Below, piece after piece: positions 10,658 to 46,184 of a stretch of DNA of 64,000 bases. Both the position numbers and the translations under genes were made by a program. Location: the NCBI RefSeq assembly GCF_008831285.2, contig NC_045142.1, positions 23,371,300 to 23,435,299 on the forward strand, written 5' to 3'. A model generated the notes under the pieces. The model did not search any database and was not told the DNA's origin. It saw only the letters and a list, made by a program, of their open reading frames with translations. Position 1 is the stretch's first letter. The number at the start of each line of letters is the position of its first letter. This stretch comes from Nymphaea colorata. Its lineage: Eukaryota; Streptophyta; Magnoliopsida; Nymphaeales; Nymphaeaceae.

Positions 10658-10914
10658 TAGGGCTGCACACAAGGCGAGTCGAGCCCAAGCTTGACCAGCT
10701 CAAGCTTGATTTGGCTCAAAAAGGTCTAGCTTGACTCGGCTACACAAAATAGAACTCAAACTCAACTCTTTAGCTCATTATGCCTTAACTTGTGTAAGCA
10801 TTAACTCATTGAACTCGTGTAAGTGTTTAACTCATGTGACTTGTGGAAATTTGTTTTTGCCCTAAAACTAAAAATCATTGATTTGGTGAACCAGTTTTGG
10901 CAATATTATTATGT
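10658..10914. mobile_element. Family A hAT-like element, copy 3 (right end missing)
   Basis: The left end TAGGGCTGCACACAAG and about 250 bp of family A interior are present, ending within the conserved 'ttggcaatattat' block. It is cut where the 881-bp tandem unit begins (10,915). Confidence 0.65.
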
Positions 10915-11521
10915 ATTCTCAAAATTTAACTCCCAATAGCTGCTTGTTAATTTGATTTGATACTTACTAATCAAACCTCAAACAAACAGATAAGTTGTGG
11001 TCTCTCTCTTGCCATCGCTCTCTTTGGATTTAAAGGTATGGTTTCTGAGCATATTTAATGGTTTTAGGGTTTTAGGGTTCTTCCTTTTTCCTTCTTTTAT
11101 TTTGCTCCTCCTGAGAGTCTACCTTGCAAGTTCTTGAAAAATCTTGTGACTCGGCCTTTGGGAGCATGTTTGAGATCAGAATCTATGGTTGGGAACGGAC
11201 ACAGATGGAAGATGAAATGGAAAAGGCTTTGAGATTCAAGATTCTCTCACATTTTTCCCTTTTTGGGGCTCCATATCCTTTAGGGATATTCAGGATCGTT
11301 GGTTCCAGAAAAAATGAGATCGTTGGTTCCAGAAAAAATGATTTGAAATATTGAGTGAAACACTTGAACATTAGCATTTTCTTAGACAAGTTCGCCCAAT
11401 ATCTCATATCATTTTTTCTCTAACCAACAATCTCGAATATACAAAAAGGACACAGAACCCCAGGGAGGGGAAAATGTGGGAGTCTCTTGAATTTCACAGC
11501 CTTATCCGTTCATCTTCTGTC
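10915..11521. repeat. Tandem repeat unit, copy 1, left part
   Basis: Begins 'tgtattctcaaaatttaactcc', as does copy 2 at 24,008, and runs through 'gccatcgctctctttggattta' into one hairpin-bearing subunit. It stops at 'catcttctgtc'. Its continuation, by comparison with 25,660-25,740, resumes at 23,731 ('tgcaaggttcctaacc'), so 11,522-23,730 is an insertion in this unit. The hairpin of this copy spans about 11,284-11,440 and contains an internal duplication of 'gatcgttggttccag'. Confidence 0.75.
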
Positions 11522-11537
11522 CAGGGATGCACACGAG
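11522..11537. mobile_element. Family A hAT-like element copy 4, detached left end
   Basis: CAGGGATGCACACGAG matches the family A left end (TAGGGCTGCACA...GAG) with two differences. The next base of family A resumes about 11.8 kb away at 23,334, so this short piece is interpreted as the left tip of an element split by organelle DNA. The match is short; the reading depends on the fit with 23,334-23,728 and on the repeat flanks. Confidence 0.5.
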
Positions 11538-14500
11538 GCCTCGCAGGAAGGCTTTGCTTGTCAGTGGGTTTTCCTCTTCGCCCAAAGCATCGGACCAACG
11601 ATCACCCATGACTTCTGTGTCCCACTAGTGCCACAAAGGGTTTTGGTGGTCTTATTAGTGCATACCACAGTGGGTCTTCGACTGGGGTGAAGTCGTAACA
11701 AGGTAAACGTAGGGGAACTTGTGGCTAGATGAAATCCTTTGCGACCGGACCGATAGGCGGGGGAGGCCAACGCCTTCCACTGTTGGTGGGATGTCTAGGC
11801 GTAGTAGCCTAGCTCTTTAGAAGCTGAGGCCGTACGTCACGAGATTAGATTAGCAAAGCCCAAAACTCGCAACTTTCAAAGGTGTGTCACGAGCAAAACC
11901 CACAAAGCATTCGCCACTTTGAATGCTGAAAGAAGGGATCAAGGTTTGACGGATTGATGGAAATGACCAGTTGCAATTATATGCCATTAACCATACAACT
12001 CCTTTCCTTTCAAGAATGTCCTTTCCATTAATTGGTCCGGGTCTACACTAATGGCATACAATTTTTTGTATAGTCAACACTAATGACATACAATTTTCGG
12101 TATAGATAATAGCATATAATTGCAATTGATCCTACCATAAATTGCTTTTTCTTTCTCCATCAAAAAGTTGAATGATTTGTCTGACCAGTGACCACATCAA
12201 TGACAATTTTTGGGCTACGCAAGTTGTAACTGCTGACGAAGAGATTGGAGCAGCATCTCCAGTTTTTTCTTCCGCAGATACCACCCTCCATACCCGAAGA
12301 TTGATTCCTTTCGTGCTCCTTCTGGTTTGGCTAAAAAAACTGACAGATGAGGCTATTCCAGCGAGTGGAGGAATATCTTGGAACTCCAATAGAAGGCGCT
12401 TGAGCAATGATTTTGGCAAGGTAGTGGGATTCAGCCAGAGAAAGAGTGACATTCGAAAGCGCATCACGAGAACTTCTGGATCAGAGAAGCATTCGGAACG
12501 GGCTCCGCATTCATTCTCCAATTCATTCGCAGAAATGATCCAATCAATTTGGGGCTTCGGGGAATCGAGATCCATAGTTACCTACTACCTACGACTTTCC
12601 AAATGGATAAGAACTCCGGAGAAGAAGAATGGCGAAGAAGAGATGGGGAAAGACATTAAATCTACTGACTCGAGTCTGTCAACCCAACTCCAAGCGAGGG
12701 TTGTAATTTTCTTCTCCTAATCATCAATTCTAGTGGAAAGAGGAAGGAAAGACACCCACTGCACCAAACAAGAGTCAAGCCCGAGTTTGAGAAAGGCAGG
12801 TCAGGGAAGCCACTTTCTATTTCTAGTTCGACAGTCCCAGCTCCCAGCATCGCGTATTCATTCCATTCTATGCCATTTTGCTTTTTCTTTTTCTTCAGAA
12901 GCACTAATGGCATCTCATTTTCGGTATTAATGTAATAGTCAACCCTAATGGCATACAATTTTTGGTATGTCACATTAATACCAAAAACGAGATGCCAACT
13001 CCGAAGGCGACTTCAGGCTGGCTGGCTAGTCTGCCAGCCCTATAAGCCTTGATTCATACTAGGTCTTTTCACTCCAATCTGGATTCCTGTCAAACGACCA
13101 TACTTGACCGAAAAAAGAAATGAAGGACCTCGGGCAGCAATGTTTTTTGGAATTCTGTCTCTCTGAACCGAAGACGCACTTCTCAGATCAGGCTAGGCCT
13201 CTCCAACGGAGCTGGCTGCCGGGACCCTTCAAGAAGATCCTTTCCTTTCCATTAGAGTTGTCAGGGTCAGCACTGTTTAGGATTTGCCTGACCTGAATCA
13301 GTGACCGTCGGTCTTTATATTCCATCCCACAGCCATCTTTTTTGCTATAATGACAAGGAAAGTCTCTTTGCTCGTTCCGACCATCACCATTCTCAGGAAA
13401 AGTTGGTCACATAGATCTTCTATTTCGCCAGAATTTGTTGATTGCGGAGTACGAATTTGCAATGGAAAAACTCCTGTCTCACTCATCTCACCTGAAGACC
13501 GCTCTCGCTCGGGCATGATATTTGCACAATGAGTACAGCTAGGCTGTTGCCCAGTTTGCTCTTCACTACAGTTGTTCGTGCATATGACAGGACCACTCGA
13601 ACCGCGAAAGTTATAGTTCGACTTAATCTCCAAGTCGGACTGGGAGCAGCTTCGTAGGGCCTGCAAAGCGTTTCTTCGCTAAAGCAAGAAAGTCCTTCAT
13701 TTGCTAACGAAATTGGTGGAAGGGCCTATCAAATCATCCCTCCCTTGCAGCTTGGATGACCGGCTTTCATCGGCTCAGGAGGATTCAAGATAGACCCTGA
13801 GAAGACGAAGTCTGTCCAAGAACGGCCAACCCCCAAGCAGCACCCATAACGGCAGATAAGGGCATGGAACCACCACCATTAGCGGTGGTGTTTTCCACGA
13901 AATCTATTTCAGTAGAGCGTGGCCGGATCTCCTCCCCAAATGGTGGAGCAGCAACTTCTAATAAAGTGCCTGATATTGAAACACTCACATGCTCTGATCA
14001 ACTTGTCAGAACGAACTCAAAAACACTTTCAAATTTTTCTAGATAAGTTGAACTATTGGAAGCAAATGGAAAAGGAACACCGAGTGGGATCAAAGAAACT
14101 AGCAGACTGATCCCATAGATTGCCAGTGCCATAATTTGCATGCTCATCGTCTGGGCATTGTTCAACAAAGGTCTGAAGGAATTCCGAGGGAAACTGCTAA
14201 TTCAATTGCGAAAACAACTGTTCGAGAAGGGACATAACCAACCATTGAAACTCTTGTTTCAAGTGTGTGCTTTCTGAAAGAAGGGAACTCGTCAAGGTCA
14301 TACGGAATCAAGGTTTGACGGATTGCATCCGTCGATGGAGCAGTCGATTCTGGCAACCGTGCATTGTACTTATGTTGGAAAGGTAGCTTTAGCTTCCGCC
14401 AAAGAGGAAGTGGATGATGATTGGAAGGTTTCCGGTGTAGCAGCCAACGACCTTTTTTTGCTTCTTGTATAGTCAGTACTAATGGCATACAATTGCCATT

Positions 14501-14946
14501 TCTCCTAAAATCCATCCATATTGGATTTGGATATCTTTTCCTTCACTTTGCTTGCTCTCAAATTCTATGAAGAGCAGATGGATCCTATCCTAAAAACATT
14601 CATTCCTTTCTATTAATAGAAAGATCTTCGTCAAATACCGTTGGGATCGATAGGAAGAAAGAAGATCCATGCAAGAAAGAAGACTCCTGTTGCTATTGAA
14701 GAAGAATCTGTTGCTAACAAAGAAGAGCAAGAATGGATTGCTTTCTTGTTTGACACCTTTGAACCTGAGTGAGCCACAAACGCTCTTGAGTCAATATCAG
14801 CTCAACCAGTTTCCGGTCTTGTTTGCATAGAACCAACTTCATTCCTTGCTCAAACAAAAACTACAGCTGCTAACGGAAACTAGTCGTTCCACTCGTGCTT
14901 CTCTTGGGATCCTTCTGTTGATAAGCTTCAAACCCCTTGCTAACTG
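11538..14946. other. Nuclear insert of organelle DNA, left part (NUMT)
   Basis: GC content rises visibly relative to both flanks. The segment starts within a few tens of bases of a recognisable mitochondrial rrn18 3' end (11,577-11,738). The remainder is not assignable by eye to a known mitochondrial gene. It contains several open frames, for example minus-strand frames at 12,132-12,575 (147 codons), 13,298-13,666 (122 codons) and 14,162-14,515 (117 codons). They are typical in length of orphan frames in plant mitochondrial spacer DNA; none shows a domain I recognise. Short repeats recur inside: 'actaatggcatacaatt' (about 12,048, 12,944, 14,478) and 'caaggtttgacggattg' (about 11,940 and 14,309). 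Continuity with 21,647 onward is inferred from the copia target duplication. Confidence 0.7.
11577..11738 (+). pseudogene. rrn18: Mitochondrial small-subunit rRNA (rrn18), 3'-end fragment
   Basis: The segment runs from 'aagcatcggaccaacgatca' through the conserved 'gaagtcgtaacaaggta' motif to 'ggggaacttgtggctagatg', close to the 3' terminus of plant mitochondrial 18S rRNA. The text after 'aaggta' (aacgtaggggaac) follows the mitochondrial rather than the nuclear 18S pattern ('tttccgtaggtgaacc'). Several substitutions relative to the usual plant mitochondrial sequence and the missing upstream 1.7 kb or so show it is a non-functional nuclear copy. Confidence 0.8.
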
Positions 14947-15331
14947 TGTTGGATATTGGATAGTGGCCAGTAAGCCCCATCCGGATATCTCATAACTGCC
15001 TGGCAGTTATGAGATCAACCCAAAATCAACTCACGAGATAAGAATCCATCTTTATCTCAATCAGTTTCCAAAATTTTCTCTCCCACGAACCGCAGCTGGG
15101 GTTCGGGGAAAACCTAAGGGGCTGGCTATATATATCCCAGTAATACTCAGTCTAACTAGTAGAAGAGAAATCCGTGAGGAGCCCCTTGGAAGGAAACCCC
15201 AAAATCTAACTTATTTCCCTTTCGTCTATGTTTCTTCCTTCTTGACTGTTAGACACTTCAAGTCTGGAGCAAACAGTGGCATGGTGAACAATAGGAGCTT
15301 CAGACGTCGTTTCACTGCCTTCATTCCAACA
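14947..15331 (+). repeat. 5' LTR of the copia element
   Basis: 385 bp, TGTTGG...CCAACA. It contains a TATA-like 'tatatatat' at 15,127-15,135 that could position transcription start. It also contains a perfect 14-bp palindrome, 'atctcataactgcc' / 'ggcagttatgagat', with a single-base spacer at 14,987-15,015. In the 3' LTR the same palindrome has one mismatch. Confidence 0.95.
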
Positions 15332-15332
15332 G

Positions 15333-15345
15333 TAGTATCAGAGCC
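15333..15345 (+). promoter_or_regulatory. Primer-binding site (initiator tRNA-Met type)
   Basis: TAGTATCAGAGCC lies two bases after the LTR. The usual plant copia site is TGGTATCAGAGC, so there is one substitution (G to A) in the terminal TGG. Confidence 0.85.
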
Positions 15346-16881
15346 AGAAGATCAACGTCCGAAAAAGGTAAGTCGTCCTCTGGCAATATAGTGCACAGAC
15401 AGTATATGACTAGAACATGCTATATTCAAAGCTATGTGGTATTCATGAAGCATGCTAGACTAAATAATGTGCTGTAGGCAAGGAATGATATTAGATGCAT
15501 GCTGAATTGATAGCTAATGTTTGAAGCATGTCGTAGTACCTTTGGAATAATCTCTATGCAATGTAATTCTATAAGGTGAAGGCGTCCTAATATACTCTGC
15601 CAAGAAATTTGTTTTTTCATGAAATTTTTTTTATGCGTACATATTTTCTATGGTTGTGGCTCTAGAGGACAGAGGGTTTCTGGTCTATGGCTCCGTAGAC
15701 TAGAACCCTCTGGTGACAGATGAGACAGTAAGCACTGTCGACCTCTCTGAACCTTGTTTCAACCTTAATTGACATTTTAAAATGGGATTGGACGGAAAAC
15801 CCTTTGTGCCAAATTAGGGCAGAAAATATACCTTGACTGGAGTTTTTTTTTCTTTTTTCTTCTTCTTCACTGGACCCTCTGTAGCAGCCGGAAAGCCCAC
15901 CCCTGCTTCCTGTCCGGCGAACCCAAAATCAGAAAACAGCCGACTTCGTCCCTGTTGTCTGTCTCTGTTTCTTTCTTCTCTCTGCATATCGTCGGTGATA
16001 GAAGGAGAAGCCTAGGCAAACACGAAATTGGGAGAGTCTCTGCAACTCTTCTTCCCGGTAAGCAGACGGTTGCCATCACTCGTGCAGCCAGAGTCTTCTT
16101 GTTCCTTTGTTGCACTTTTTTTTTTCTCTTCTTCTGCTTGAAAGTTCTCCCTGTTTTCTTTATCGCCGACCTAAAACCCAACTGGAGAAAAATAGTTTTT
16201 TCTCAGTTTGTCCACTTGCTGCTTGCCTCTTGCAGGAGGAGCTCCGGCCGCTCGCTGAGTGGTACGTGGTCGCTCCTCGCGGTTTTGGCAGAAGAGGCGT
16301 TGTCGGAGACGGCCTGTGGAAGTTTTCTGTGGAGAGGGGACAGCAACTCTAAAGCAGAGAAGAATCGAGAGAAGAGAGACAAGAGACGGCAGAAAAATGA
16401 GGAAAATCCATGCGAGAAGGGCTTTTATAGTCCAAATTAGAAAATTACAAAAACAATCCACAATTTTGGCGTTATTTTCAAAAAGGGTGTTACAATTTTG
16501 AGAAATTAAATCCGCAACATTTTTGCTAAAAAAAACTCTTCAAAAAGAGGCTCGCGAAAGCTGTTTTCATTAAAAACCGAAAATTTTATGAGAAATTGCC
16601 TCCGGGTATCTTTATAGTTATTATAAATTACGAAAAGAGGGTCTAGAGGAATTATTTTGCAATTTCAGTGGAAAACTATGTTTTATGGAAAATTACGAAT
16701 AGACACCCTCAAGCTTATTAAAGGTGTAGAAGGAGGGTTATGAAATAAACTCTGAAAAGAGATGTGCATGTTCTAAATGTTATTTAAAGTCCTTTTGTTT
16801 AAATATTATTTTAGAATATTATGAAATCTCTTGATGTGATATTCATTGTAATATGTTCTCCATGTCTTTATTGTTCCTTAC
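15346..16881 (+). other. Copia untranslated leader
   Basis: About 1.5 kb between primer site and gag. It holds pyrimidine-rich and purine-rich stretches (about 15,840-16,400) with overlapping small frames on both strands that do not resemble gag or pol. No gene is called. Confidence 0.6.
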
Positions 16882-17877
16882 TTGTCATGGAAAATTAATT
16901 TAGAAATAACATCAAGAGTGGGAGCCTCTGAATTAGCTAAGACTGAGAAACTGAATGGGACAAATTTTCATGCATGGAAGCGTAGAATAATGCTGGTCTT
17001 GACTTTGAAAAGACTCATTTATGTGATCAACCAGCCTTTTCCCTCTTTAGGAGACAAACCCACAGATGAAGAAAAAAAGACATATGAGTCATTTACTTTT
17101 GATGATCTAATGGTTAAAACTATCATGTTAGCCTTCATGGAAGATGATCAAATCAGAGTCTTTGAGGATTGTCCAACTGCCAAGGACATGTTTGATACTA
17201 TCACTTCTAAATACAACACCATGACTGCAATGCACATTCAGTTACTGCAAGAACAGTTCAATTTCTATAGGATGAAAGAGTCAGACAATGTAATGGACCA
17301 TGTTAATAAGATGTTGGTCATGGCTAAAGATTTAGCCGTGATAGGGAATGTCATATCTGACAATATGCAGATCAGCACAATCCTGAACAGCGTACCTCCT
17401 TCTTGGGATATGGCAGTTACTGCTTTGAGTGTTCAATTTGATACTCTTACTTTAAAAAAACTTCCTATACAGTTAGCTCTACAGCAACAACGTTTGACCA
17501 AGAGAAATAGAACAGAATTGATGACAGTCTAGGAAAAACCTGCTGGTAGTCATGTGTCTGTAAAACCAAAACAATTTAAAAATCGAAACGATGGCAAGTT
17601 CAAGGGAAATTATGCAGGTACTAAGAAATCTCAAGGAACTGTAGTGAAATGCTACAGATACGAAAAGTCTGGACATATAAAGAAGAATTGCAGGACAAAA
17701 TTCCCGAGTAAGAAAGACAACAATGGTCAGAACAACTACAACAGAAAGAAGCCTCAAGGGGACTCTGACAGAGAAGTCTTCTGTGTCGTGTCAGAACGTC
17801 TGTTTGCATATGGAGATCTAACTGGATGGTGGGTCGATTCGGGAGCTACTCGTCACATTGCAAAGACAAAAGAATGA
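16882..17877 (+). pseudogene. Copia gag and start of protease, broken
   Basis: The open frame enters at about 16,882 without an in-frame ATG near its beginning; the ATG at 16,887 is in another frame and stops at once, so the original start is unresolved. The N-terminal part carries the copia gag signature 'LNGTNFHAWKRRIML' and a UBN2-type capsid region to about 17,520. An in-frame TAG at 17,530 interrupts it. After the stop the same frame continues with a basic region and a zinc knuckle at about 17,652-17,693, in which the second cysteine of CX2CX4HX4C is replaced by tyrosine (C-Y-R-Y...GH...C). The aspartic protease motif DSGA follows at about 17,836-17,847, and a TGA ends the frame at 17,875. 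Confidence 0.9.
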
Positions 17878-20800
17878 GTGATCCACATGGAAAATCTGAG
17901 TCCGGGAACCCACAAGGTCTATATAGGAAACAACTCTTATTGTGATGTCATGGGAATTGGGGCATATCGTCTAAATGTTGGGGGTACAAGTGTTGTACTT
18001 AACGAGGTTTTTATGTCTCTTCCATGAGGAGGAATCTAGTGTTTGTTCCCGCACTGACTGGGAAAGGTTTTGAAGTATGTTTTATTCCAGAAAAAGTAAC
18101 AGTGGGAAAACATGGAAGATTCATGTTTGGTGGAAAATTTGTAAAAGAACATGGTATGTTTAAACTGAATGATATGAATGAAGCTTCCAGTTTTGCTTAT
18201 TTCGATTGTGCAATGAGTGTCAACGTAAACTTATGGCATGAAAGATTAAGCCATATAAGCATCAAAAAGATGCAGACTCTAGCACAACAAGGTCTAATAC
18301 CTGACATAAATACAAATGATTTTGCGAAATGCGAATCATGTGTATACGGAAAGATGACAAGAAAACCATTTCCGTCTGAAGTAGTTCGGGCCACTGAATT
18401 ATTGGAGATAATTCATACTGATATCTGTGGACCTTTCAGAATCCAAACTCATAGTGGCAAGTTATATTTCATAACGTTTATTGACGACTTCTCAAGATTT
18501 GGTTACATATACTTAATTAGACATAAATCGGAAGCACTTGAGAAATTCAAGGAATACAAATCTGAAGTCGAGAGACAACTTGGAAGAAATATCAAAATTG
18601 TAAGGTCTGATCGAGGAGGAGAATACACTTCTAGTGAATTCCTCGAATACTGCAAAGGCATTGGAATTAATAGGCAAAAGACAATGCCTAGGACACCACA
18701 ACAAAATGGTGTGGCTGAGAGGTGTAACAGAACCCTCTTGAACATGGTGAGATCCATGTTGGTAGGAGCACAATTACTAAAAGTCTTTTGGGGAGAAGCT
18801 GTGTTAACAGCCATGTATACAATAAACCGAGTGGCCTGCAAAGCAGTCCCAACCACTCCTTATGAAAGATGGACTGGCATAAAACCAGATCAGAGATATT
18901 TAAGGAGATGGGGATCTGTAGCACACGTAAAAATTCTAGATCCAAAACTGGACAAATTAGATAATAGATCAGTGAGATGTATATTTATTGGATGTCCCAA
19001 AGGATCCAAGGGCTACAGATTGTATCATTCATCTATGGGACTTATATAAAGCAGAGATGTAGAGTTCATAGAAGAACACAATAATAAAGATTTTGATCCA
19101 GTAGAATATCGAAATGATACACTAGATGATCTGATTTATTCAGATTATCAGTCTGGTAATGAACCGACTGGAGGTCAGTCTGGAAATGAACCGACTGAAA
19201 GTCAGTTTGACAATGAACCAACTGAGCATGAATCGTCTGAGAAATAGTCAGGAAATGAACCGTCTGATATGAATCAGTTAGGCAATGAACCAACTGATAT
19301 GAATACCTCATCATCTCAGACGTTATCAGGTCATAAAAGACCTAGAGCTCCTTCTTCATATTTAAATGATTATTATGTATATCTAGCAGAAGAGCTATGC
19401 TATTTAGCAGATATTGACGAAATGTTTGACAATCTGACATATGATGAAGTGGTTAGCTCACATGAATCGTCGGATTGGGTGAATGCTATGGATGAAGAAA
19501 TTGAATTCATAGAAAAGAATAAAGTCTAGGAATTAATAGATCTTCCTAATGACAGAAAACCCATTGGATGTAAATGGGTGCTAAAGAAGAAGTATAAAGC
19601 TGACGGATCAGTTGAAAAATTCAAAGCCAGACTAGTGGCGAAAGGTTTTTCCCAAAAAGAAGGAATTGATTACTCAGAGACCTATTCACCGGTTGCAAAG
19701 TTTGCATCAATCAGAATAATTTTGGCTATCGCGGCATTCTATGACTTGGATATTTGTCATATGGATGTGAAGACTGCTTTTCTGAATGGTGAGTTGAAAG
19801 AAACTATATATATGGATCAACCACAGGGATATGTCATCAAGGAAAAAGAAGACAAAGTCTACAAGTTGAATAAATCGTTGTATGGACTGAAACAGTCTCC
19901 TAGACAATGGTATTTTGCCTTTCACAAAGCAATTACAAAACTTGGGTTTGTTGCAAACCAACTAGACCACTATGTGTATGTTTGGAAAAGTGGGAGTCTT
20001 TTCTGTATTATATCATTATATGTTGATAACATATTGCTAACAGGAAATGATAACGATATGATACTCAAAACGAAGACTTGGCTGAACAAAAACTTCGAAA
20101 TGAAGGACTTCGGTGAAGCATCCTATATATTAGGAATAAAAATCACTCGAGATAGAAACTCAAGAATCTTGAGTTTAAGTCAGGAACGGTATATTGTTTA
20201 TAACTTGAAGAAATTTCGAATGTTAGACTGCAAACCAATTGGGACTCCTATAGCTAAATGAGCAAACTTAAGCAGGAGTGATTGTCCTGGTGAAGGACAA
20301 CAAAAATTAAATGTTCCATATGCACAAGCGGTTGGTAGTCTCATGTATTTAATGCTTTGTACCAGACCAGACATAAGTTTTCCTATCGGTCTGGTAAGTC
20401 GTTATCAAAGTAATACTGGATAGCCTCATTGGCAAGCAGTCAAAAGAATTTTTCGGTATATTAAAAGAACAAAAGGACTGAACTTGTCTTATCAAGCAGA
20501 TGAGCTAACTTTAGTTGGCTATTCTGATGCAGATTTTGCAGGCTGCAAAGATGATAATAAATCCACTTCAGGGTATGTTTTTCTCTTTAGAGGTGGGGCG
20601 ATAGCCTGGTCCTGTAAGAAACAGGGATGTATTGCTCAGCACACACAGGAAGCAGAGTATGTTGCTTGTAATGTTACAACTACCTTTGTTGTCTGGATAA
20701 ACCGGTTCTTGAAAGAATTGAAATTAAATCTTGATCATGAACCTGTTCAATTGTACTGTGATAATCAGGCAGCTATATCTCTTATGAAGAATGGAGCTGT

Positions 20801-20981
20801 TATCTCAAAAAGTAAACATATAATGGTGAAATACCATTATGTTCATGAAATGATCAAGAAAAATGAAATCTCGGTTGATTACTTGCCTACCAATGATATG
20901 GTGGCTGATCCCTTAACCAAGGGAATATCCAAAGACTTGTTTTCAAAACATGTAGCTCATATGGGGCTAAGATATATTTAA
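17878..20981 (+). pseudogene. Copia pol (protease end, integrase, RT, RNase H), broken
   Basis: Homology continues after the TGA at 17,875 to about 18,024, where the frame shifts. Integrase (18,024-19,046) shows the H-H-C-C zinc site ('LWHERLSH...CESC') and the D, D, E triad ('HTDICGPF', 'SDRGGEY', 'NGVAER'). Reverse transcriptase (about 19,530-20,258) shows 'KARLVAKGFSQ', 'MDVKTAFLNG' and 'SLYGLKQSPRQW'. Its catalytic box reads YVDN instead of YVDD (about 20,020-20,031). RNase H (about 20,500-20,940) keeps 'YSDADFAG', 'EAEYVA' and 'YCDNQAA'. In-frame stops lie at 19,047, 19,245, 19,527, 20,259 and 20,421. With a mutated active site and these breaks the copy cannot act on its own. Confidence 0.95.
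19150..19310 (+). repeat. Short in-frame tandem repeat in pol linker
   Basis: The linker between integrase and reverse transcriptase contains at least five imperfect copies of about 30-36 bp encoding a 'GNEPT' core, with acidic and serine-rich surroundings. One copy contains the TAG at 19,245. Repeat slippage in this non-catalytic linker is a reasonable origin. Confidence 0.75.
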
Positions 20982-21199
20982 AAGGTTGCGAAGGAAAAAC
21001 TATTGAATAGAAAACCTCGCTGTAAACCTTGAAAAAAGGTTTAGGTTGCGTTGGAAAAGCCAATTAAGGAAAACCACGTAACAGATTTGAAAGGATTGCG
21101 AAGGAAAAACCATTGAATGGAAAACCTCGCTGTAAACCTTGAAAAAGGTTAGGTTGCATTGGAAAAAGTCAACTATGAAAAACTACGTAACAAATTGAA
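20982..21199 (+). repeat. Two-copy tandem repeat of about 108 bp upstream of the 3' LTR
   Basis: Units begin 'aaggttgcgaaggaaaaac' at 20,982 and 'aaggattgcgaaggaaaaac' at 21,091. Both contain 'aaaacctcgctgtaaacctt' and end near 'ctacgtaac'. It is non-coding and belongs to the copia 3' untranslated part. Confidence 0.85.
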
Positions 21200-21246
21200 T
21201 AAAGAAAACCCACATAGAGTGGAAGCAAACTGGCGGTCTCATGACC

Positions 21247-21256
21247 AAGTGGGAGA
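21247..21256 (+). promoter_or_regulatory. Polypurine tract of the copia element
   Basis: AAGTGGGAGA lies immediately before the 3' LTR, the usual position of the plus-strand primer in copia elements. Confidence 0.8.
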
Positions 21257-21641
21257 TGTTGGATATTGGATAGTGGCCAGTGAGCCCTATCCGGATATCT
21301 CATAACTGCCTGGCAGTTACGAGATCAACCCAAAATCAACTCACGAGATAAGAATTCATCTTTATCTCAATCAGTTTCCAAAATTTTCTCTCCCACTAAC
21401 CGCAGCTGGGGTTTGGGAAAAACCTAAGGGGCTGGCTATATATATCCCAGTAATACTCAGTCTAACTAGTAGAAGAGAAATCCGTGAGGAGCCCCTTGGA
21501 AGGAAACCCCAAAATCTAACTTATTTCCCTTTCGTCTCTATTTCTTCCTTCTTGACTGTTAGACACTTCAAGTCTGGAGCAAACAGTGGCATGGTGAACA
21601 ATAGGAGCTTCAGACGTCGTTTCACTGCCTTCATTCCAACA
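21257..21641 (+). repeat. 3' LTR of the copia element
   Basis: 385 bp, identical in length to the 5' LTR with about nine substitutions, mostly transitions. It is followed by the second AACTG target copy. Confidence 0.95.
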
Positions 21642-21646
21642 AACTG

Positions 21647-23333
21647 CCTACCGATCAAGGAAGATTGCTCACAATGCGAAAAAGACTTGCCTCTGGAAAA
21701 TTGCAGGGATAACAAAAGGGAGGGCGCTTTCCTGCATTGCACTAAAGAAAGAGGACCTGGATAGGAGTCTCTCCTTGGAGGTTTCTTCCTCCATCACCCA
21801 CCGCTGCCCGGGCCGCATTAGAGGGGATTTCTGTTTCGCAAAGCAGCCAAAGACAAAGGCCATTATCCATACCAAAATTGTCATTGTATGTCATTATCCA
21901 TCAACAAAATGGAATGCCATTCTTCAAATCACTCTAGTGGTTGTTTCAGGACATCCTCAAATTTCACCCCTTCCGTCAGTAGGTTGAGCTAGGGCATTTA
22001 TAACACGACCCAAATCAGCCTCACTCACCGGTATTTGAGCAATTTGTCCTATTGCTTTTACAGAACTACCCTCTTGTATCATCAAACTGTCACCCATTAA
22101 TATTAATACAACGCCAACATTATTTGATTCAAAAAGCTAATAGCAAAATGAACTATCAAATCGATAGATGTCAAAGAAAGATCTTCAACGAACAGCAAAA
22201 TCCCACCATAATGATGAACTCCATTACTCATATGATAGCAACAGACCCTGAAGAACCAAGAGATGTGATTCCATACCTTCCCGACAGGCATTAGCTCAAC
22301 CAATAATCCAAGACCAGAAGTCTTCTTTGGGTGGCCTTTTGGCCTATGAGAGAGAAATGAAATTCCAAAGAAGGATTTGAGTCTAGAACCAAAATCTAGT
22401 GAAGAAGATGAGGGTTGAGACAATTCCAAATCCAAGGCTGTTGGCAGATCTCAAAATTCTGGGAGCTCCCATGCTTCAAACAATCAAATCCAAATGGAAA
22501 CTTGTCACTCTTCTTTCTTTCCTCATGGGCAGGAAGCACACCAGTAGTGTGCGTTGCATGATTCCACTGTATTTGCACTTGACTGGGTGGACAGTTGACC
22601 GGAAGAGAACTTCGGTTCACCCGTCCAACGGATGGGTGGCGTGCTTATCTTGTGTGACAACACCAAAAAGCTGAACAAGAAGGCTTTGCTGTGATGTGAC
22701 ATGGCCTTCAGCCATTCAAAGTTGCAAGTGCTTTTTGGGTACAAAGGGAAGATCTTTGTTTTTGCCATAGATAAAGAACGAACAAAAAGAAGGGTCTTGC
22801 ATGGTCCGAGAGTGTCTTTTCCTATCTCTCTCTAGAACGCAAGACCCATCCCGATTCTGGAGCCTCGGGGAGAAGACAATCGACTAGCTTTGCCTACTTT
22901 GTTTTTCTTCCTTTTAACCACAGCAGGGAAGTTCATCTGCAACCCGTCTAGGCAAGTGACGCCTTCATAACTTGACTTCACGGGGCGACGGTTGTGTTTT
23001 CTACCAGCCTTTCCCCTGTAGTCAAGCATAGTAGGTGAAACTTGACGGCCTAACGATGAAAAGATTGATCCAGAGACATACGCGATGCTATCCGAGGCTA
23101 CTATGTGGAAAGGTTGGTGAAAAGTCTCTCAGTTGGTTAGAGTGTTCCATATGGATCTTTCAACACTACTTTCCGTCCTTTTGGACTCACCTCTGGTATC
23201 TACGAAAGACAAAAGACCGCTGCCATACATGATATGGGATCTCATGTTTCATGTTCATGACAGGTTGAGGTCTACCACTCCTCCTTTACTGGTTGATTCT
23301 GGTTCGTCCAATAGGTTCCTTTATGTGAATTTG
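21647..23333. other. Nuclear insert of organelle DNA, right part
   Basis: Continues the GC-richer sequence that precedes the copia element. It contains a clear plastid atpA fragment on the minus strand (21,960-22,132); the rest has no gene I can name. Plastid pieces are common inside plant mitochondrial genomes. A single transfer of mitochondrial DNA already carrying atpA is therefore the simplest reading, but separate joining of mitochondrial and plastid pieces in the nucleus is also possible. The right boundary is where family A element sequence resumes. Confidence 0.65.
21960..22132 (-). pseudogene. atpA: Plastid ATP synthase alpha subunit (atpA) fragment
   Basis: The minus strand encodes a stretch matching plastid AtpA between its beta-barrel and nucleotide-binding domains, with '[11 protein letters not shown]' and '[19 protein letters not shown]' followed by 'DGRGEI'. 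A 6-bp duplication (attaat) adds two residues, and homology stops abruptly at GEI, where a stop codon follows. It lacks the Walker A region and both termini, so it is a non-functional transferred fragment. Confidence 0.85.
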
Positions 23334-23728
23334 AATCGAGCCCCTTATAGAAAGCTCAAGCTCAGCTCGGCTACACAAAATCGAGCTCGAACTCGAATCG
23401 TTTAACTCGTTTAGATGTTAACTTGTGTAAGCATTTAACTCATGTAAGCATCAACTTATGTAACTTGTGAAAATTTGTTTTTGCCCTAAAAGTCAAAACA
23501 AGTGATTCGGTGAACCAGTTTTGGTAATATTACATAGATTGTTGGTTTGCGAGTCGAGTCAAATATAAACAAATCGAATTCCTGAAACTCGTACTCGACT
23601 CGTCTACTATTTCGAGTACCTTTGGAAGCTCGAACTTGGCTCATTCATAAACGAGTCGAGCACAAGCAGAGCTCTTTCAAGAGAGTTTGAGTCGAGCTTG
23701 AGTTGGCTCGGCTCATTGTACAGCCCTA
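23334..23728. mobile_element. Family A hAT-like element copy 4, main part
   Basis: Family A sequence runs from 'aatcgagcccc' through 'gtgattcggtgaaccagttttgg' to the right terminus TGTACAGCCCTA. It lacks only about the first 16-20 bp of the family, and these are matched by 11,522-11,537. No 8-bp duplication is visible across the pair; the repeat flanks suggest a few bases were lost at the left junction. Confidence 0.65.
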
Positions 23729-23730
23729 TA

Positions 23731-24003
23731 TGCAAGGTTCCTAACCATAGATCACGAACCTGCTCTCAAGGGCCGATTACTGGATTTTCCAAGGACTCAG
23801 AAAGTAGACTCCCAAGAGGAGCAAAGGAAAAGGAAGAACAATCCCCCTTCGAAAAAAAACTTAAAACCAACAAAGATGCCCAGAATCCATGCTTTTAACC
23901 TAGAGAAAGTGGAGGTGTAGAATAGCTGGTTAATAGGAGGGGTAAGATATGGCATGTCATTTATTCGATTCCCATACGCATTCCTCTCCTTGTGGTGTTT
24001 AAA
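23731..24003. repeat. Tandem repeat unit, copy 1, right part
   Basis: Starts 'tgcaaggttcctaaccatag', homologous to 25,676-25,730 in copy 2, and so continues the unit interrupted at 11,521. It then runs as unique AT-rich sequence to the beginning of copy 2. Confidence 0.65.
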
Positions 24004-24007
24004 GTTG

Positions 24008-25740
24008 TGTATTCTCAAATTTTAACTCCTAATTGCTGCTTGTTAATTGCATTTGGTACTTACTAGTCAAGCCTCAAACAAACAGATAAGCTTTGGTCTC
24101 TCTCTTGCCATCGCTCTCTTTGGATTTAAAGGTATGGATTCTGTCCATACTTAATGGTTGAGAGGCTGATCTTCCTTTTCTTTCGTTTTTTTTTTTTTTT
24201 GCTCCTCCTGAGAGTCTACCTTGTAAGTTCTCAGAAAATCACAATCTATGGCCTGATATGCATGGAAAAGGCTTTGAGATTCAAGCTTCTCTCTCATTTT
24301 CCCCTCGTTGGGGCTGCATATCCTTCCTGGATTTGGGATCATTAGTTCAAGAAAAAATGATTTGAAATATTGAGTGGAACACTTGAACATAAGCATTTTT
24401 TTTTAGGCAATATCTCATGTTGATGTTCAAGTGGTTCACCCAATATCTCATGTCCTTTTTTCTGGAACCAACGATCATGAATATCTAGAAAGGTTTTAGG
24501 GTTTTGTTTGAAAAGGGGCTGTTCTTTCTTTTTTCTTTTATTTTGTCTACCTTGCAAGTTCTCAGAAAATCTAGTAACTCATCCTTTGAGAACATGTTTG
24601 AGATCACAATCCAGGGTCAGGAACGCGACACTGATGGAAGATGAAATGGAAAAGGCTTTGAGATTCAAGCTTCTCCCACATTTTCCCCTCTTTGGGGCTC
24701 CATATCCTTTATGGATATTCGGGATCATTGGTTCGAGAAAAAATGATTTGAAATATTGGGTGAAACACTTGAACATCAGCATTTTCAGGCAAGTTCACCC
24801 AATATCTCATATCATTTTTTCTCGAACCAACGATCCCAGATATCCAGAAAGGTTTTAGGGTTTTGCTTAAAAAGGGGTTGTTCTTCATTTTTCCTTCTTT
24901 TATTTTGCTCCTCCTGAGAGTTTACCTTGCAAGTTCTCGAAAAATCTAGTAACTTGGCCTTTGGAAGCATGTTTGAAATCACAATCTATGGTTGGGAACG
25001 CAACACAGATGGAAGCTGAAATGGAAAAGGCTTTGAGATTTAAGCTTCTCTCGCATTTTCCCCTTTTTGGGTCTCCATGTCCTTTTTGGAGATTTGGGAT
25101 CGTTCGTTTGAGAAAAAATGATTTGAGATATTGGGTGAAACACTTGAACATCAGCATTTTCAGGCAAGTTCACCCAATATCTCATATCATTTTTTCTCAA
25201 ACCAACGATCCCAAATATCCAGAAAGGTTTTAGGGTTTTGCTTAAAAAGGGGTTGTTCTTCATTTTTCCTTCTTTTATTTTGCTCCTCCTGAGAGTTTAC
25301 CTTGCAAGTTCTCGAAAAATCTAGTAACTTGGCCTTTGGAAGCATGTTTGAAATCACAATCTATGGGAACGCAACACAGATGGAAGCTGAAATGGAAAAG
25401 GCTTTGAGATTTAAGCTTCTCTCGCATTTTCCCCTTTTTGGGTCTCCATGTCCTTTTTGGAGATTCGGGATCGTTCATTTGAGAAAAAATGATTTGAGAT
25501 ATTGGGTGAAACACTTGAACATCAGCATTTTCTTAAGCAAGTTTACCCAATATCTCATATCATTTTTTCTCGAACCAACGATCCTGAATATCCCAGAAAG
25601 GACAGAAAGCCCTAGGGAGTGGGAAAATGTGAGAGACGCTCGAATGTCAAAGCCTTATCCATCCATCTTCTGTCCTTGCAAGGTTTCCAGCCATGGATCA
25701 TGAATCTGCTCCCAAAGGCCGGGTTACTGAAGCAAGTTCT
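24008..25740. repeat. Tandem repeat unit, copy 2, with four amplified hairpin subunits
   Basis: The start matches 10,915 onward. The subunit is then present four times, at about 24,174-24,517, 24,518-24,879, 24,880-25,254 and 25,255-25,625. Each contains 'ctaccttgcaagttctc', 'ggaaaaggctttgagatt' and a long hairpin. Hairpins lie at 24,713-24,845, 25,088-25,220 and 25,459-25,592, with a rearranged one at about 24,330-24,485. Stem arms are roughly 50-55 nt around a loop containing 'cacttgaacatcagcatttt'. The last two subunits are nearly identical, showing recent amplification. Open frames here follow the palindrome and repeat and show no domain. Confidence 0.8.
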
Positions 25741-25785
25741 CCAACAGTTGTGATCAATGCAGCATGAAGATGGTTTGTAGTGTTC

Positions 25786-29491: not shown

Positions 29492-30103
29492 TGCTTAATT
29501 ACTTAAATAGAACAACTTATAAATTGATCCATTTACACATTCTATTGTTTTTCTTTGAAACAAACTGTTCCATTTTCGCATTTGATGCTCTTAATTTTTG
29601 AATTGATTTCATGGTTCAAATATTCAATCAATATTTTTTTTCCTATTAGTTAAAGGTTTTTGTTTTGAAATTGGTGAATTATGTGTCATATATCAAATAA
29701 GCAAAACTTTCAAACAAGTTGTATGGTTATACAAAATAATTTACTTGATTGATTAAATAAGTGATTGATAAATTGATAAACAAAACCCTTTTTAAAAGTT
29801 TTGCAATTTTTTCATATTAAACATATTTATTTGATATTAACTTTCATATTTATGAAAATGCCAATTCTGCTGAAATTTTTTAATTGAAGTTTTCTTTATT
29901 ATTTACAATTAAATAAATACATTATTTAAGATATCCTACTTAGTTGATGTCTTAACTATAATAGTTTGCTTGATTACATAAAATTATTCAATTAAACATA
30001 ATATTAGTTAATTAATTAATTAATTAAATTTATTTTGTATGATGTAGTTGTAAATATTTTAAGTCAAATGGTGCATATGGCCATTATTATTCATAACTCC
30101 ATG
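29492..30103. repeat. Direct repeat, left copy (possible LTR)
   Basis: 612 bp from 'tgcttaattac' to 'cataactccatg', clearly homologous with 32,095-32,698 (604 bp) in the same orientation but with many differences. Direct repeats about 2 kb apart would suit an old LTR pair. However, no 5-bp target duplication or convincing polypurine tract was found. A primer-site-like 'tagtattagagcc' occurs downstream at about 30,266. Confidence 0.6.
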
Positions 30104-32094
30104 GCCGTATCTAGCATGATCGAGTCCATCTCCTGCTCTAAGTGCTTGGTTGGCTTCAGGCCCTTTCGGCTCTTGTCTCTTCTCAGCTCTCCTTCTCTTC
30201 TTTCTTTTTAAGCAAAGCGAACCTGCGCTTTCAGTGTACAAATCTGGCCCCTATTTCTTTTTAGTATTAGAGCCTAGTACGCTCTTGGTGTTGTAAGTAT
30301 GTTTTCTTATTAATGAAAGTTTTTATATGTGTTTGAAGTTTTACTTTGTGCTTAGCTTAGAAGTTGAACGGAAAAGTCTCTTCCCTAGAAAAATGTATTT
30401 TTGCATACACCTATATAATCTGCTATTATGACTCTGTGTTTTGTACTGGAAGTTCTGGCCCTAGCCAGGATCGATGAGTAGGAACCATGAGTTATAAGAA
30501 AGAACTTGTTAGAACATGATCTGTTTTTTATGTTGTTTTCATGTTTCTAAGTTTTTGATTCCTTGGATGAGCCACCATATAAATCCTTAAGGACCAAAAG
30601 GCTATTATGGAAAAGAAGTACCCCCGAGGCAGGGGACCATTTAAAGAAAAAATTGGGTCAAATCTTGCTACCTTCTTTTCTATCCACCTTTACTTCCACT
30701 GCAGCTATTTTTTTTATATTGTCCATCCTATTTTCTGCTACGAGGATTCTTCTTTCAATAATACATCCTTTCGTCATGTCTTATTTTCCATAATAAATTA
30801 ATACTGTCTATCTTCCAAATAAAATTTTCAGGCTTCAACCATACAAATTTTGCATTGGAATCTAAGTTTTATACTTGGATAACCATTACATAATATGCGT
30901 GGATGATCAATACTTCCTTATCAGTATTTCCATTCATGTTCATATTTATATTCTAATTTAGCTATAGTTCTAGAGATGTAATCCATGCTTAATGCAAAAT
31001 TATTTGCTTAATCTCTTTTATTATTTTTACTATTTCAATATAGTTTTGATCTGATTTTTGTGGGTATTTAAAACTTTCTAAGGTTTGTTTTTGTAAAACT
31101 TCAATATTAAGTGTATATTCCTGCAGACTTCTGACTTTACTTAGGATAGTAACTTACTGGTCTTTTAAATATCTTTGGTTTTTTTATATTTCTTTAATGG
31201 TATGATTTCTAAATGTATCAAATATGGGCTGCCAAAAGGCCTGATTTTTTATATTATAAGATTTTAGGTTTTGTGCTAGGTAAATATGTAGGTCGGTTAT
31301 ACTATTCAGTTGTTGAGACATGCGACTAGTGTCTTCGTTATGAAGTAAATGTTTTCCATTTTGGAAGTAACAAGTATGGCTAAACTGGTTATCTTTTATG
31401 GTACTTTTAGATTTTTGGTATAGTTCTAAATTCAAATATTTGGTCTATTCATATGATGGTATGATGATATGAAAAATTGATATTTCTAATTAGTATAGTA
31501 AGTTTTAATATCTCTAACTAGTGGAGTTAAAATTTTTAACTAGTGTTTTAGTATTTTTTAAGTTTTTAACAAACATGGTTTTAGAAGATCAAAAGTTTCT
31601 TTAGCCTACTAGGTACTCATTATCTCGCAATTGTATGTATAATTCATACTCTGTTTACGAGTCTTTGTTTTAAGCTGAAAATTTTTGAACAGGGTACTAC
31701 GAACAGATAACACATCTCTTGTAAAAAAAAGAACAAACTAGAACATGGTAGGCTTATGGTATGATTCTTTTGATTTTGAAAACCTTTTAGATTTCCCTTT
31801 CATAGAACACCATGTGCGACATGCGACATCATGTCATCCCATTCATGTCCTCCTTTGAGTTCATTTGCACGTAACTATTTTTGTTTGTTGGCGTTTAACT
31901 TGTTCAGGAAGGAATCCAACTCATTTTCCAAGTTGTATTTGTTTTGAAGTCTGATGCCTATTTAAGCATTACCCTGAAGTCTATAACCTTCCATCCACAT
32001 CTACATCTACCGTCAAGTACTTACTTCTAAGTGCTTAGACCATCTCCCTTCTTCGCTCCTCTTCCATCCTTTCCCTCTCTTACTCTTCCTCTCA
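30104..32094. other. Sequence between the direct repeats
   Basis: No gag, pol or other coding domain is visible. Pyrimidine-rich stretches lie near both repeat borders (30,130-30,215 and 32,030-32,090), and both contain 'ctaagtgctt'. If the repeats are LTRs, this would be a non-autonomous element. Confidence 0.4.
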
Positions 32095-32698
32095 TGCTTA
32101 ATTACATAAATATAACAACTTATAAATTGATCCATTCGCACATTGTATTGCTAATCTTTCAAACAAATTGTTCCATTTGCACATTTTACGCTTCGAATTA
32201 TTGAATTGATTTCATTATTCAAATATTCAATCAATATTTTTTTCCTATTAGTTAAAGGTTTTTGTTTTGAAATTGGTGAATTATGTGTTACATAACAAAT
32301 AAGCAAGATTTTTAGACAAGTTGTATAGTTATATAAATAATTTACTTTATTGATTAATTAAGTAACTGATAAATTAATAAACAAAACCATTTTAGGTGTT
32401 TTGCAATTTTTCCGGTTTTGACATTAATTTTCATATTTCTGAAAATGCCAATTTTGTTGAAATTTTTTAATTGAAGTTTTTTTATTATTTACAATCAAAT
32501 AAATATGTTATTTTAGATATCTTGCTTAGTTCATTTTTTAACTATAATAGTTTGCTTGATTACATAAAATGTTCAATTAAACACAATTTTAATAAATTAA
32601 TTAATTAATTAAAAATATTTCACATGACGTAGTTGTAAATAGTTAAGTAAAATGGTGTATATGGCAACTATGTGGCCATTATTATTCATAACTCCATG
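32095..32698. repeat. Direct repeat, right copy (possible LTR)
   Basis: Same sequence family as 29,492-30,103, including the shared 'caatcaatatttttttcctattagttaaagg' region. Confidence 0.6.
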
Positions 32699-32779
32699 AA
32701 AGTTATTAGCAACTAGTCAGGCTTTTCTTCATATAGAATTTATTAAATCTTATAATATTATGGTGTTAAGTTGGTGGGT

Positions 32780-33575
32780 TTGGCTAGACCTTTTACAAGT
32801 TGAAGCCGACTTATGGATATCAACTCTCATGATTCGGATTCGGATATCATGTTACAGTTCAAATTCGGATATCAATTCATGGTTCGGATTCGGATGTCAT
32901 CTCATGATTTGGATTTAGATATCAAGTTACAGTTTGGATTCAGATATACTTGTTAAGGTGTTTATTATTTGATCAGATATTTAGTTAAAACCGAATCTGA
33001 ATCCGATCAGAAGTTATTTCTTAGATCCGAATCTGATCTGATTTCTTAATCGGATATTAAATTTCTTTCCATATCTGATTTTTTTAAAGCAATTTAGATG
33101 GATATCCGATCCGAATCCGATTTGTTAACATTCCTGAGGTAGGGTTTGGATGACACCTGGACCTTTATAAAAAGTCCTTATGTAAAAACAAGGATTTTTT
33201 AAAACTTGGTTTTCAATTTGTTTTTGGAATTTGGCTTCTATATGTGGGTTTGAAAAATGATGTCAATGGATCAGATTTTTATTGGATATACCTTTAACCG
33301 TATTCACTTTTTCGGATATTTACACTTTAATACTCGAATTCGGTTTTAAATATGAACAAAGAAAAATATATCTGAATCCGAAAACAAATTTCACAGTATG
33401 AAACCATTCTGAATCCGAATCTGATCGAATATTTATGCATATCTAAATCCTATTGGGTATCATTTCTTAAATATGAATCAGATCTAATTTCTTAATTAAT
33501 GTTTAATTTTTTTATGTTATTTTTTCTGAATGGTTCAATCGAATATCTGATCCACATTAGACATGTTCACATTCC
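32780..33575. mobile_element. Two decayed family B MITEs
   Basis: The part 32,800-33,137 ends 'ttgttaacattcct', a degraded family B right end. The part 33,260-33,575 begins 'gatgtcaatggatcagat' and ends near 'atgttcacattccta'. Both interiors are built of 'gaatccgatc'-type motifs. No target duplications were found. Confidence 0.45.
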
Positions 33576-35643: not shown

Positions 35644-35651
35644 TAGGGTTT
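35644..35651 (-). promoter_or_regulatory. Telo-box upstream of RPS12 copy 1
   Basis: TAGGGTTT (minus strand AAACCCTA) lies 90 bp before the start codon. Telo-boxes are common in plant ribosomal-protein gene promoters. In the duplicate the matching site reads TAGGGCTT (40,808-40,815). Confidence 0.5.
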
Positions 35652-44851: not shown

Positions 44852-44894
<43 letters not shown>

Positions 44895-46162: not shown

Positions 46163-46184
46163 AGCTTATGTGAGACCAGGCAGG

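Follow-up and report, generated by a model that had tools for sequence, protein, structure and literature searches.

Nuclear insertions that mix mitochondrial and plastid fragments are known as numins, whose joins are blunt or show microhomology; the worked maize example in the available part of that report comprises four fragments over 3,573 bp (PMC6215612). Filler DNA at plant double-strand breaks, in the available portions of two reports, measures about 1–131 bp and is mostly copied from nearby, with nuclear insertions of up to 534 bp (PMC2686159, PMC3289645). A maize NUMT with retrotransposons inside, where mtDNA was duplicated at the insertion, has been described as continuous mtDNA once the retrotransposons are removed (PMC4632043, as excerpted).

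Here we analysed a 64,000-nucleotide stretch (the window) of a Nymphaea colorata (water-lily) chromosome, where a tandem repeat holds a family A hAT-like element, which in turn holds organelle DNA and, within that, a copia element. Without the copia element the organelle DNA amounts to 5,089 bp and splits the small DNA transposon close to its left end. As in numins, mitochondrial and plastid fragments adjoin and the inner joins bear end-joining marks, blunt or with microhomology; the differences from the maize example are at least 34 fragments in 5.1 kb and a transposon end at the edge (PMC6215612, in part). Like plant break filler, the insertion consists of short stretches joined with short microhomology, several of which can also occur in filler, but it holds 5.1 kb of organelle DNA against the 534 bp or less in the excerpted reports (PMC2686159, PMC3289645). 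The maize NUMT likewise has an LTR element within organelle DNA and a target duplication of mtDNA, whereas its mtDNA, as far as the excerpt describes it, is continuous and that of the water lily is a patchwork (PMC4632043). Mixed organelle insertions are already known; the fineness of cutting is unusual. We favour, with a probability of roughly two in three, a reading in which one nuclear double-strand break at the left end of the transposon was repaired with dozens of organelle scraps.

Nested architecture of the locus

The nested layers are as follows.

10,909–11,521, plus: interrupted tandem-repeat unit, left part; repeats to 24,004–25,680, rejoins with 23,729
11,522–11,537, plus: family A hAT-like element, first 16 bp (TAGGG end); 2/16 mismatches to consensus
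14,947–21,641, plus: Ty1/copia retrotransposon; LTRs 14,947–15,331 and 21,257–21,641
23,327–23,728, plus: family A element, remainder to CCCTA end, by family alignment
23,729–24,003, plus: interrupted tandem-repeat unit, right part; TATGCAAG at the place expected for the target duplication

A sequence-only reading of the window had proposed these layers, and both the layers and their order are supported. When 11,521 was joined to 23,729 by script, the product aligned with the uninterrupted unit at 25,531–25,760, gap-free at the join and for about 45 bp around it; the unit stops at 11,521, as had been read, and resumes at 23,729 rather than 23,731.

Family A, which we assign to the hAT superfamily by assumption, shares 8-bp duplications and short inverted ends with hAT-type non-autonomous elements; its inverted terminal repeats, the prevailing ends in the alignment, are TAGGGCTGCACA on the left and TGTGCAGCCCTA on the right. 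Thirteen of 14 copies are 438–557 bp long and one is 696 bp. The right end lies at 23,728, an end point matched exactly by 19 of the 39 other places scored. Alignment of copies genome-wide (12 from the genome, 3 from the window) gave the left-end consensus TAGGGCTGCACACGAG, which begins with the sequence at 11,522–11,537 apart from the two mismatches, as the sequence-only reading had anticipated; the chance of such a 16-bp fit at one fixed place is 2.6e-7. Across the mitogenome's first 200 kb no comparable fit was present. A mitochondrial origin of these 16 bases was rejected, because the mitochondrial sequence upstream of the first organelle piece does not match them.

The element resumes at 23,327 instead of 23,334 and lacks more than the first bases that had been thought missing. 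Nine of the 14 copies align well at both the left end and the motif at 23,327 (L065, L072 and L074 match the motif poorly, and L071, L072 and L075 have a poor left end), and in these nine the motif sits at positions 56–130 (median 81), so roughly 40–110 bp beyond the first 16 appear to be missing. In contrast to hAT-type non-autonomous elements, the interrupted copy has lost its left duplication as well as part of its left end. An 8-bp duplication (at least 6/8 matching) is kept in eight of 14 copies and was not found at the interrupted copy (CTTCTGTC versus TATGCAAG); since six of 14 copies also show no clear duplication, its absence is weak evidence by itself.

The copia LTRs, 385 bp each, differ by 9 mismatches, and the target duplication is AACTG (5 bp). 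Copia-order gag, integrase and RT domains were found in three of five reading frames tested and none in the other two. The element sits within one mitochondrial piece, whose match goes on past the duplication; copia was the last arrival at the locus, in agreement with the earlier reading.

The organelle DNA is a patchwork

The organelle DNA had been read as a single stretch with two recognisable genes, mitochondrial rrn18 and plastid atpA. Searches against the N. colorata mitogenome (C782, 617,195 bp) and plastid genome (C783, 159,842 bp) bore out its organelle nature for at least 3,694 of 5,089 bp. A contiguous stretch was rejected, as the matches scatter over many C782 sites; the patchwork, absent from that reading, is the main point of this report. 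Its features are listed below, organelle pieces by their source.

11,537–11,576, minus: C782:370993-371032 (93% over 40 bp)
11,577–11,794: rRNA-like and other stretches, relatives nuclear only (C2, C3)
11,795–11,882, minus: piece with nuclear relative C4:7732306-7732393
11,865–11,963, plus: best source C782:545239-545337 (multi-copy mitochondrial repeat, placement not unique)
11,964–12,133: diverged mitochondrial repeat family
12,214–12,251, minus: C782:168611-168648
12,251–12,358, minus: C782:176428-176534
12,464–12,559, minus: C782:334923-335020
12,562–12,614, plus: C782:433917-433969
12,614–12,769, plus: C782:135255-135414 (collinear nuclear control L016)
12,764–12,831, plus: C782:419868-419935
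12,834–12,871, minus: C782:154551-154588
12,871–12,969, plus: C782:50963-51061
12,998–13,027, minus: C782:181508-181537
13,034–13,118, plus: C782:382782-382872
13,145–13,228, plus: C782:466486-466569 (collinear control L060)
13,239–13,309, plus: piece with nuclear relative C12:11970061
13,309–13,358, plus: C782:137871-137919
13,384–13,477, minus: C782:467051-467144 (collinear control L060)
13,514–13,640, plus: C782:591886-592013
13,693–13,768, plus: piece common to nuclear loci (13,711–13,768, dispersed high-copy nuclear family)
13,767–13,841, plus: C782:477461-477535
13,834–13,890, plus: C782:127770-127826
13,920–14,040, minus: C782:179544-179665
14,032–14,112, minus: C782:501111-501191
14,112–14,189, plus: C782:343353-343435
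14,190–14,262, plus: C782:346760-346832
14,259–14,325, plus: piece with nuclear relatives C14:11088065, C11, C4
14,353–14,473, minus: C782:499497-499617 (collinear control L059)
14,510–14,673, minus: C782:334595-334758
14,669–14,774, minus: C782:342619-342724 (nuclear relative on C13 extends to 14,818)
14,830–14,946, plus: C782:612339-612457 (split by copia; match resumes at 21,647)
21,674–21,862, minus: C782:335035-335217
21,861–21,955: mitochondrial repeat-like stretch, nuclear relative C8:11600312
21,956–22,134, plus: plastid piece, C783:13007-13179 (atpA by reading)
22,130–22,240, plus: C782:408647-408758
22,333–22,463, minus: C782:597186-597316
22,464–22,671, minus: C782:333868-334075
22,664–22,868, minus: C782:268161-268365
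22,868–23,072, minus: C782:151169-151374
23,068–23,326, minus: C782:151652-151910

The 34 placed pieces (33 mitochondrial, one plastid; median 99 bp) come from scattered sources on both strands (15 plus, 18 minus). Together they cover 3,694 of the 5,089 bp, and nuclear and repeat-family relatives raise the supported length to 4,540 bp; 1,395 bp are without a placed source and 549 bp without any support. In four of the source searches 40 of 69–184 candidates were scored, so further sources may be hidden and 34 is a lower bound. The list leaves out 13 of 43 tiles (short, repeat-family or nuclear-only) and includes four other placements. Because the pieces at 12,214–12,251, 12,834–12,871, 12,998–13,027 and 13,309–13,358 were found only through the first 200 kb of C782, the list is biased towards that third.

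The atpA label holds for the plastid piece, which adjoins the mitochondrial piece at 22,130–22,240; the rrn18 label was not confirmed. By eye, a motif of an rRNA end can be made out near 11,690, and assignment to an rRNA family was rejected, as Rfam returned no rRNA match, just three weak miRNA-model matches under their gathering scores. For 11,577–11,794 no mitogenome match was found among 6 candidates, all scored; the sole rRNA-type match was C5:18638945 (80%), which looks plastid-type.

Divergence, sources and joins

The 34 pieces differ from their sources at 288 of 3,731 positions (7.7%), homogeneously (chi2 26.1, df 33, p 0.80) in a test of limited power owing to the short pieces; in the organelle-to-nucleus direction, C-to-T or G-to-A changes make up 156 of the 288 differences. 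The sources of the 33 listed mitochondrial pieces do not overlap, and one dropped 28-bp repeat-like tile (12,970–12,997) would reuse its neighbour's source bases 51,000–51,027. Sources are clustered, with nine pairs within 1.5 kb against 2.6 expected (p 0.0026), among them four pieces from C782:333868-335217; none of the four pieces found via the first 200 kb belongs to the nine pairs.

At 14 joins read by hand, 0–8 exact bases are shared; two more tight joins, each with a gap of 2 bp, were set aside. Three or more are shared at five joins (p 0.0006), the mean is modestly raised (p 0.037), and eight joins share 0 or 1 base. Strong microhomology from BLAST overlaps (7/16 joins at least 5, p 0.004) was rejected, since mismatched extension inflates such overlaps; their mean was not above control (p 0.25), and exact bases were therefore counted instead.

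Of 64 other nuclear matches, 31.7 would be expected to extend across a piece edge; only 2 do so, both running into unassigned sequence, and none of the 64 joins two pieces. This set excludes matches of one repeat-rich search and of the search covering 11,537–11,794, plastid-tile matches (24 on unplaced contigs and 6 on chromosomes, all within 21,956–22,134), and 19 of 33 nuclear rows of one search, which are further copies of the 13,711–13,768 family.

These pieces with one divergence, no recurring source base and joins unseen at the other nuclear matches fit one event outside the mitochondrion. Transposon pieces lie at both edges of the patchwork, the terminal 16 bp on the left and a clean edge on the right.

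Possible origin of the insertion

We propose that a non-autonomous hAT-like element within a tandem-repeat unit was hit by a double-strand break at its left end, and that repair would have deleted roughly 40–110 bp of the element together with the left target duplication while rejoining the element's terminal 16 bp to the flank. The gap would have been filled in one event by at least 34, probably about 40, short organelle fragments, almost all mitochondrial and one plastid, linked through nuclear end joining that used little or only short microhomology; copia inserted last. The break was presumably single and the fragments probably ligated, not copied.

The evidence supports the suggestion of the sequence-only reading that organelle DNA was captured at a break close to the end of the transposon; that excision or failed transposition caused the break is plausible, at somewhat under even odds, and fits the lost left duplication and the end-joining marks. 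A random break close to one end of an old transposon, with no transposase and the left duplication lost separately, is equally possible: six of 14 family A copies have no clear duplication anyway, and complex organelle insertions are known at ordinary breaks (PMC6215612, PMC2820518, in the parts available). Against chance placement, the part of the repeat unit lost at the interruption is exactly the left duplication copy, and the very tip of the transposon is retained at the flank.

The pieces might instead have been copied by serial template switching (MMBIR/FoSTeS or SDSA), as the shared bases at joins, 8 bp in one case, and the use of neighbouring sources would allow. We consider this unlikely, given the 33 listed mitochondrial sources without overlap (the one dropped 28-bp tile excepted), the eight of 14 joins with 0 or 1 shared base and the two gapped joins.

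Plant mitogenomes recombine, and the patchwork could have been assembled by recombination in an ancestral mitochondrion and then transferred to the nucleus in a single unbroken stretch. The N. colorata mitogenome is nearly half repeats, according to the available part of a report whose title states low recombination (PMC6092842), and some pieces have nuclear relatives, but the present mitogenome yielded no scored source for them. An origin in the mitochondrion is nevertheless improbable in view of the nuclear matches, which so rarely cross piece edges and never join two pieces. Moreover, one older and one younger nuclear insertion are collinear with the present mitogenome across the same sources. 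The collinear controls for these mitochondrial regions span 849 bp and 487 bp (both on C7) and 2.8 kb (on C10). For 32 of 43 tiles, a second placement was lacking in the mitochondrial DNA compared (about one third of C782 and short stretches).

Slightly less probable still is an excised element, broken near its end and sealed with the captured chain into a break in the repeat unit, with no transposition; the unit is restored with neither duplication nor loss, as this would predict, but both exact transposon ends would have to be ligated at the flanks. Many independent insertions at a hotspot, or later shuffling of an older insertion, are very improbable: loose clustering and shuffling have been described for plants (PMC7037861, in part), but the divergence is homogeneous, within the limited power of short pieces, and the joins are tight with no other DNA in between.

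Significance and other loci

Under the favoured reading of one repaired break, the locus offers dozens of joins at base resolution within a single scar, and it can test ligation versus copying of organelle fragments, their derivation from a small number of shattered molecules, and any attraction of such repair to transposon ends. NUMT surveys that require longer matches could under-count organelle pieces of 30–100 bp. We tentatively speculate, as a rather unlikely generalisation, that organelle DNA in N. colorata may be cut to about nucleosome size or smaller and ligated by the dozen per break, failed-excision transposon ends being one break class, so that transposon activity would directly drive fine-grained transfer to the nucleus. 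Judged against one third of the mitogenome, four other nuclear loci (L007, L015, L012 and L088) likewise showed only short organelle matches, and such fine cutting may thus not be peculiar to the insertion described here. One of them, L007 (C4:7732306), comprises five short, scattered mitochondrial pieces, a mosaic which hints that fine-grained multi-piece insertion recurs.

Insertion site and family A element

The best-supported account of the organelle patchwork within 11,522-23,728 is a single break at the left end of a family A transposon (a non-autonomous hAT-like family), which would have been repaired by end-joining capture of organelle fragments. The boundary features are as follows.

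11,522-11,537: left tip of the focal family A copy, with 2 mismatches to the family A end in 16 positions
14,947-15,331 and 21,257-21,641: LTRs of a copia element, differing at 9 of 385 places
23,327: restart of the focal family A copy, immediately after the final organelle piece
23,728: right end of the focal family A copy

The host tandem-repeat unit (internal TRF period 375) is broken after 11,521. When its two sides were rejoined without 11,522-23,728, the alignment with the uninterrupted unit near 25,531-25,760 was gapless at the site and within about 45 bp of it. The 375-bp tandem repeats at 24548-25601 contain inverted arms of 59 bp at 90-93% identity, and a similar inverted pair lies in the unit at 11,216-11,510; the latter probably explains a weak miRNA-model match at 11,322-11,428.

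A genome search with 23,320-23,740 gave 957 candidates; among the 40 that were scored, 19 of the 39 non-self places stop exactly at the position corresponding to 23,728. Alignment of 12 fetched copies and three copies from the window gave the prevailing family A ends as TAGGGCTGCACACGAG... on the left and ...TGTGCAGCCCTA on the right. The flanking 8 bp match at 6 or more positions in 8 of 14 copies, including two copies with all 8 matching; an 8-bp duplication is the mark of the hAT superfamily. In 9 of 14 copies the left end aligned well, as did the motif at which the focal copy restarts; in these nine the motif lies at positions 56-130 (median 81), indicating that approximately 40-110 bp of the focal element is missing. 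The duplication type expected at the focal site is CTTGCAAG, the flanks being CTTCTGTC and TATGCAAG and the empty repeat unit reading CTTCTGTCCTTGCAAGG. On this reading, the focal copy would have kept the right duplication copy with two changes and lost the left one, with the rest of the unit intact.

Other family A copies were seen in the window. One at 2,053-2,748 has a perfect TTGCCAAG duplication and contains, at 2302-2482, an extra insert with ends GGGGCGGAG...CTCCGCCCC (by eye). Another, at 10658-10908, has a TAGGG end, lacks its right half and ends abruptly at the repeat start (10,908/10,909), and one more left end, differing at no more than 2 positions, lies at 49334.

Composition of the organelle patchwork

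The window corresponds to G000:C5:23371300-23435299. The assembly (407.8 Mb, 783 contigs) includes the mitogenome contig C782 of 617,195 bp, the size given for the Nymphaea colorata mitogenome in PMC6092842, and C783, the plastid match here, of 159,842 bp. Besides C783, 19 unplaced contigs (e.g. C39, C97 and C741) carry the plastid stretch at equal score, and many of these probably represent plastid DNA remaining in the assembly. Sources were sought by whole-assembly searches with five stretches of the insert and a sixth for its left end, and by local BLAST against roughly one third of C782, supplemented by short segments from elsewhere in that contig. These searches placed the insert as short pieces from scattered organelle sites. 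The curated list holds 34 pieces, 33 mitochondrial and one plastid, spanning 3,694 of 5,089 bp. It may lack some mitochondrial sources, since the searches passed over common words and, for four stretches, scoring was confined to the top 40 among 69-184 candidates. Support rises to 4,540 of 5,089 bp when stretches with nuclear-only or repeat-family relatives are included. The pieces are 30-259 bp long (median 99), and the mitochondrial ones lie 15 in plus and 18 in minus orientation; that at 11,865-11,963 is a multi-copy mitochondrial repeat whose placement is not unique. Local BLAST of window positions 30,001-50,000 against the first 200 kb of the mitogenome gave no match.

Window positions 13,711-13,768 match a high-copy family dispersed in the nuclear genome over 53-58 bp at 95-98% identity. 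Five copies are listed here; L077 additionally contains 25 bp of a mitochondrial-type repeat.

L077, L078, L079, L080 and L082: on C8, C15, C13, C4 and C6

Evidence for a single event

A single divergence of 7.7% (288 of 3,731 sites) fits all 34 pieces (chi2 26.1, df 33, p 0.80), a test whose power is limited by the short pieces. C-to-T or G-to-A substitutions, read from organelle to nucleus, make up 156 of the 288 changes; such decay is expected in methylated nuclear DNA. The 33 listed mitochondrial pieces have no source base in common; one 28-bp repeat-like tile, left off the list, would overlap the source of another piece. Sources are also clustered: nine pairs lie within 1.5 kb, compared with 2.6 expected (p 0.0026), none of which involves four small pieces that were picked up solely by the closer search of the first third of C782. 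These four may raise the counts at 5 kb (17 pairs, 8.5 expected, p 0.0092) and 10 kb (29 pairs, 17.2 expected, p 0.0084). Four pieces, at 12,464, 14,510, 21,674 and 22,464, all derive from C782:333868-335217 (1.35 kb) in one shared orientation. The common divergence fits one event, and the clustering fits an origin from a small set of molecules, fragmented and then rejoined in a new order.

Joins and mechanism

Read base by base, 14 joins have 3, 3, 8, 1, 3, 3, 2, 1, 1, 1, 1, 1, 0 and 0 bases common to both sources, and two more tight joins have 2-bp gaps. Sharing of at least 3 bases occurs at 5 of the 14, compared with 5.4% of random mitochondrial joins (mean 0.73 shared bases; p 0.0006); the mean number shared is a weaker test (p 0.037). 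The mean of the BLAST overlaps at joins was no different from that of simulated blunt joins (p 0.25). On these counts, the joins look like ordinary end joining aided somewhat by short microhomology.

In plants, a break can be repaired with short filler taken from DNA close by (PMC2686159, PMC3289645), and end joining captures organelle fragments at breaks, plant cases often being rearranged or mixed chains (PMC6215612, PMC7037861, PMC2820518). Mixed organelle insertions and multi-piece ones are already known. In PMC6215612 the worked example consists of four fragments within 3,573 bp, whereas the focal insert has at least 34 in 5.1 kb and is far finer. Literature searched by title and the beginning of the abstract, a set largely free of subscription papers, yielded no organelle capture at a transposon terminus and no equally fine patchwork.

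For the origin of the break, a transposase cut at the left end of the element is a tentative proposal, to which we give somewhat less than even odds. It would account for the element tip at the flank, the exact loss of the left duplication and the missing adjoining stretch. A random break, with the duplication lost separately, explains the locus about as well. The absence of the left duplication can also be described as an 8-bp deletion spanning the flank-transposon boundary.

Comparison with other nuclear insertions

If the order of the pieces were an old mitochondrial one, the joins should recur in other nuclear insertions. Among 64 other nuclear hits, 38 end no more than 3 bp from the edge of a piece, and just two cross an edge, compared with 31.7 under random placement (minimum 21 in 2,000 trials); both of these extend into unassigned sequence and neither into the adjoining piece. 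An insertion on C7 is collinear with the present mitogenome for 849 bp (96.3%) over the sources of two focal pieces, and approximately 3 kb from it a 487-bp insertion (91.6%) is collinear over the source of one. On C10, about 2.8 kb is collinear at 82.8% over the source of one piece; this greater divergence indicates that the collinearity of other insertions is not merely a matter of youth. These comparisons fit an origin of the patchwork outside the mitochondrion.

In a comparison covering about a third of the mitogenome and short stretches besides, several other nuclear loci have short organelle matches only (L012, 188 bp; L015, 89 and 44 bp; L088, 104/301 bp; L083, 168 and 72 bp), which counts against a special status of the focal locus. 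The locus L007 (G000:C4:7732306-7732393 with 1.5 kb flanks) has five mitochondrial matches of 43-147 bp from scattered C782 sites in both orientations, has one piece in common with the focal insert, and is possibly a second patchwork.

Later insertion of the copia element

The copia element is flanked by an AACTG target duplication. Its domains (gag, gag-pre-integrase, integrase and RVT_2) are arranged as is typical of copia elements; of five reading frames tested, two gave no domain match. The match to C782:612339-612457 carries on beyond the AACTG duplication, and this continuity indicates that the element split a single organelle piece. Comparison of half of the 2.3% LTR divergence with the 7.7% of the organelle pieces suggests that copia inserted well after the patchwork formed.
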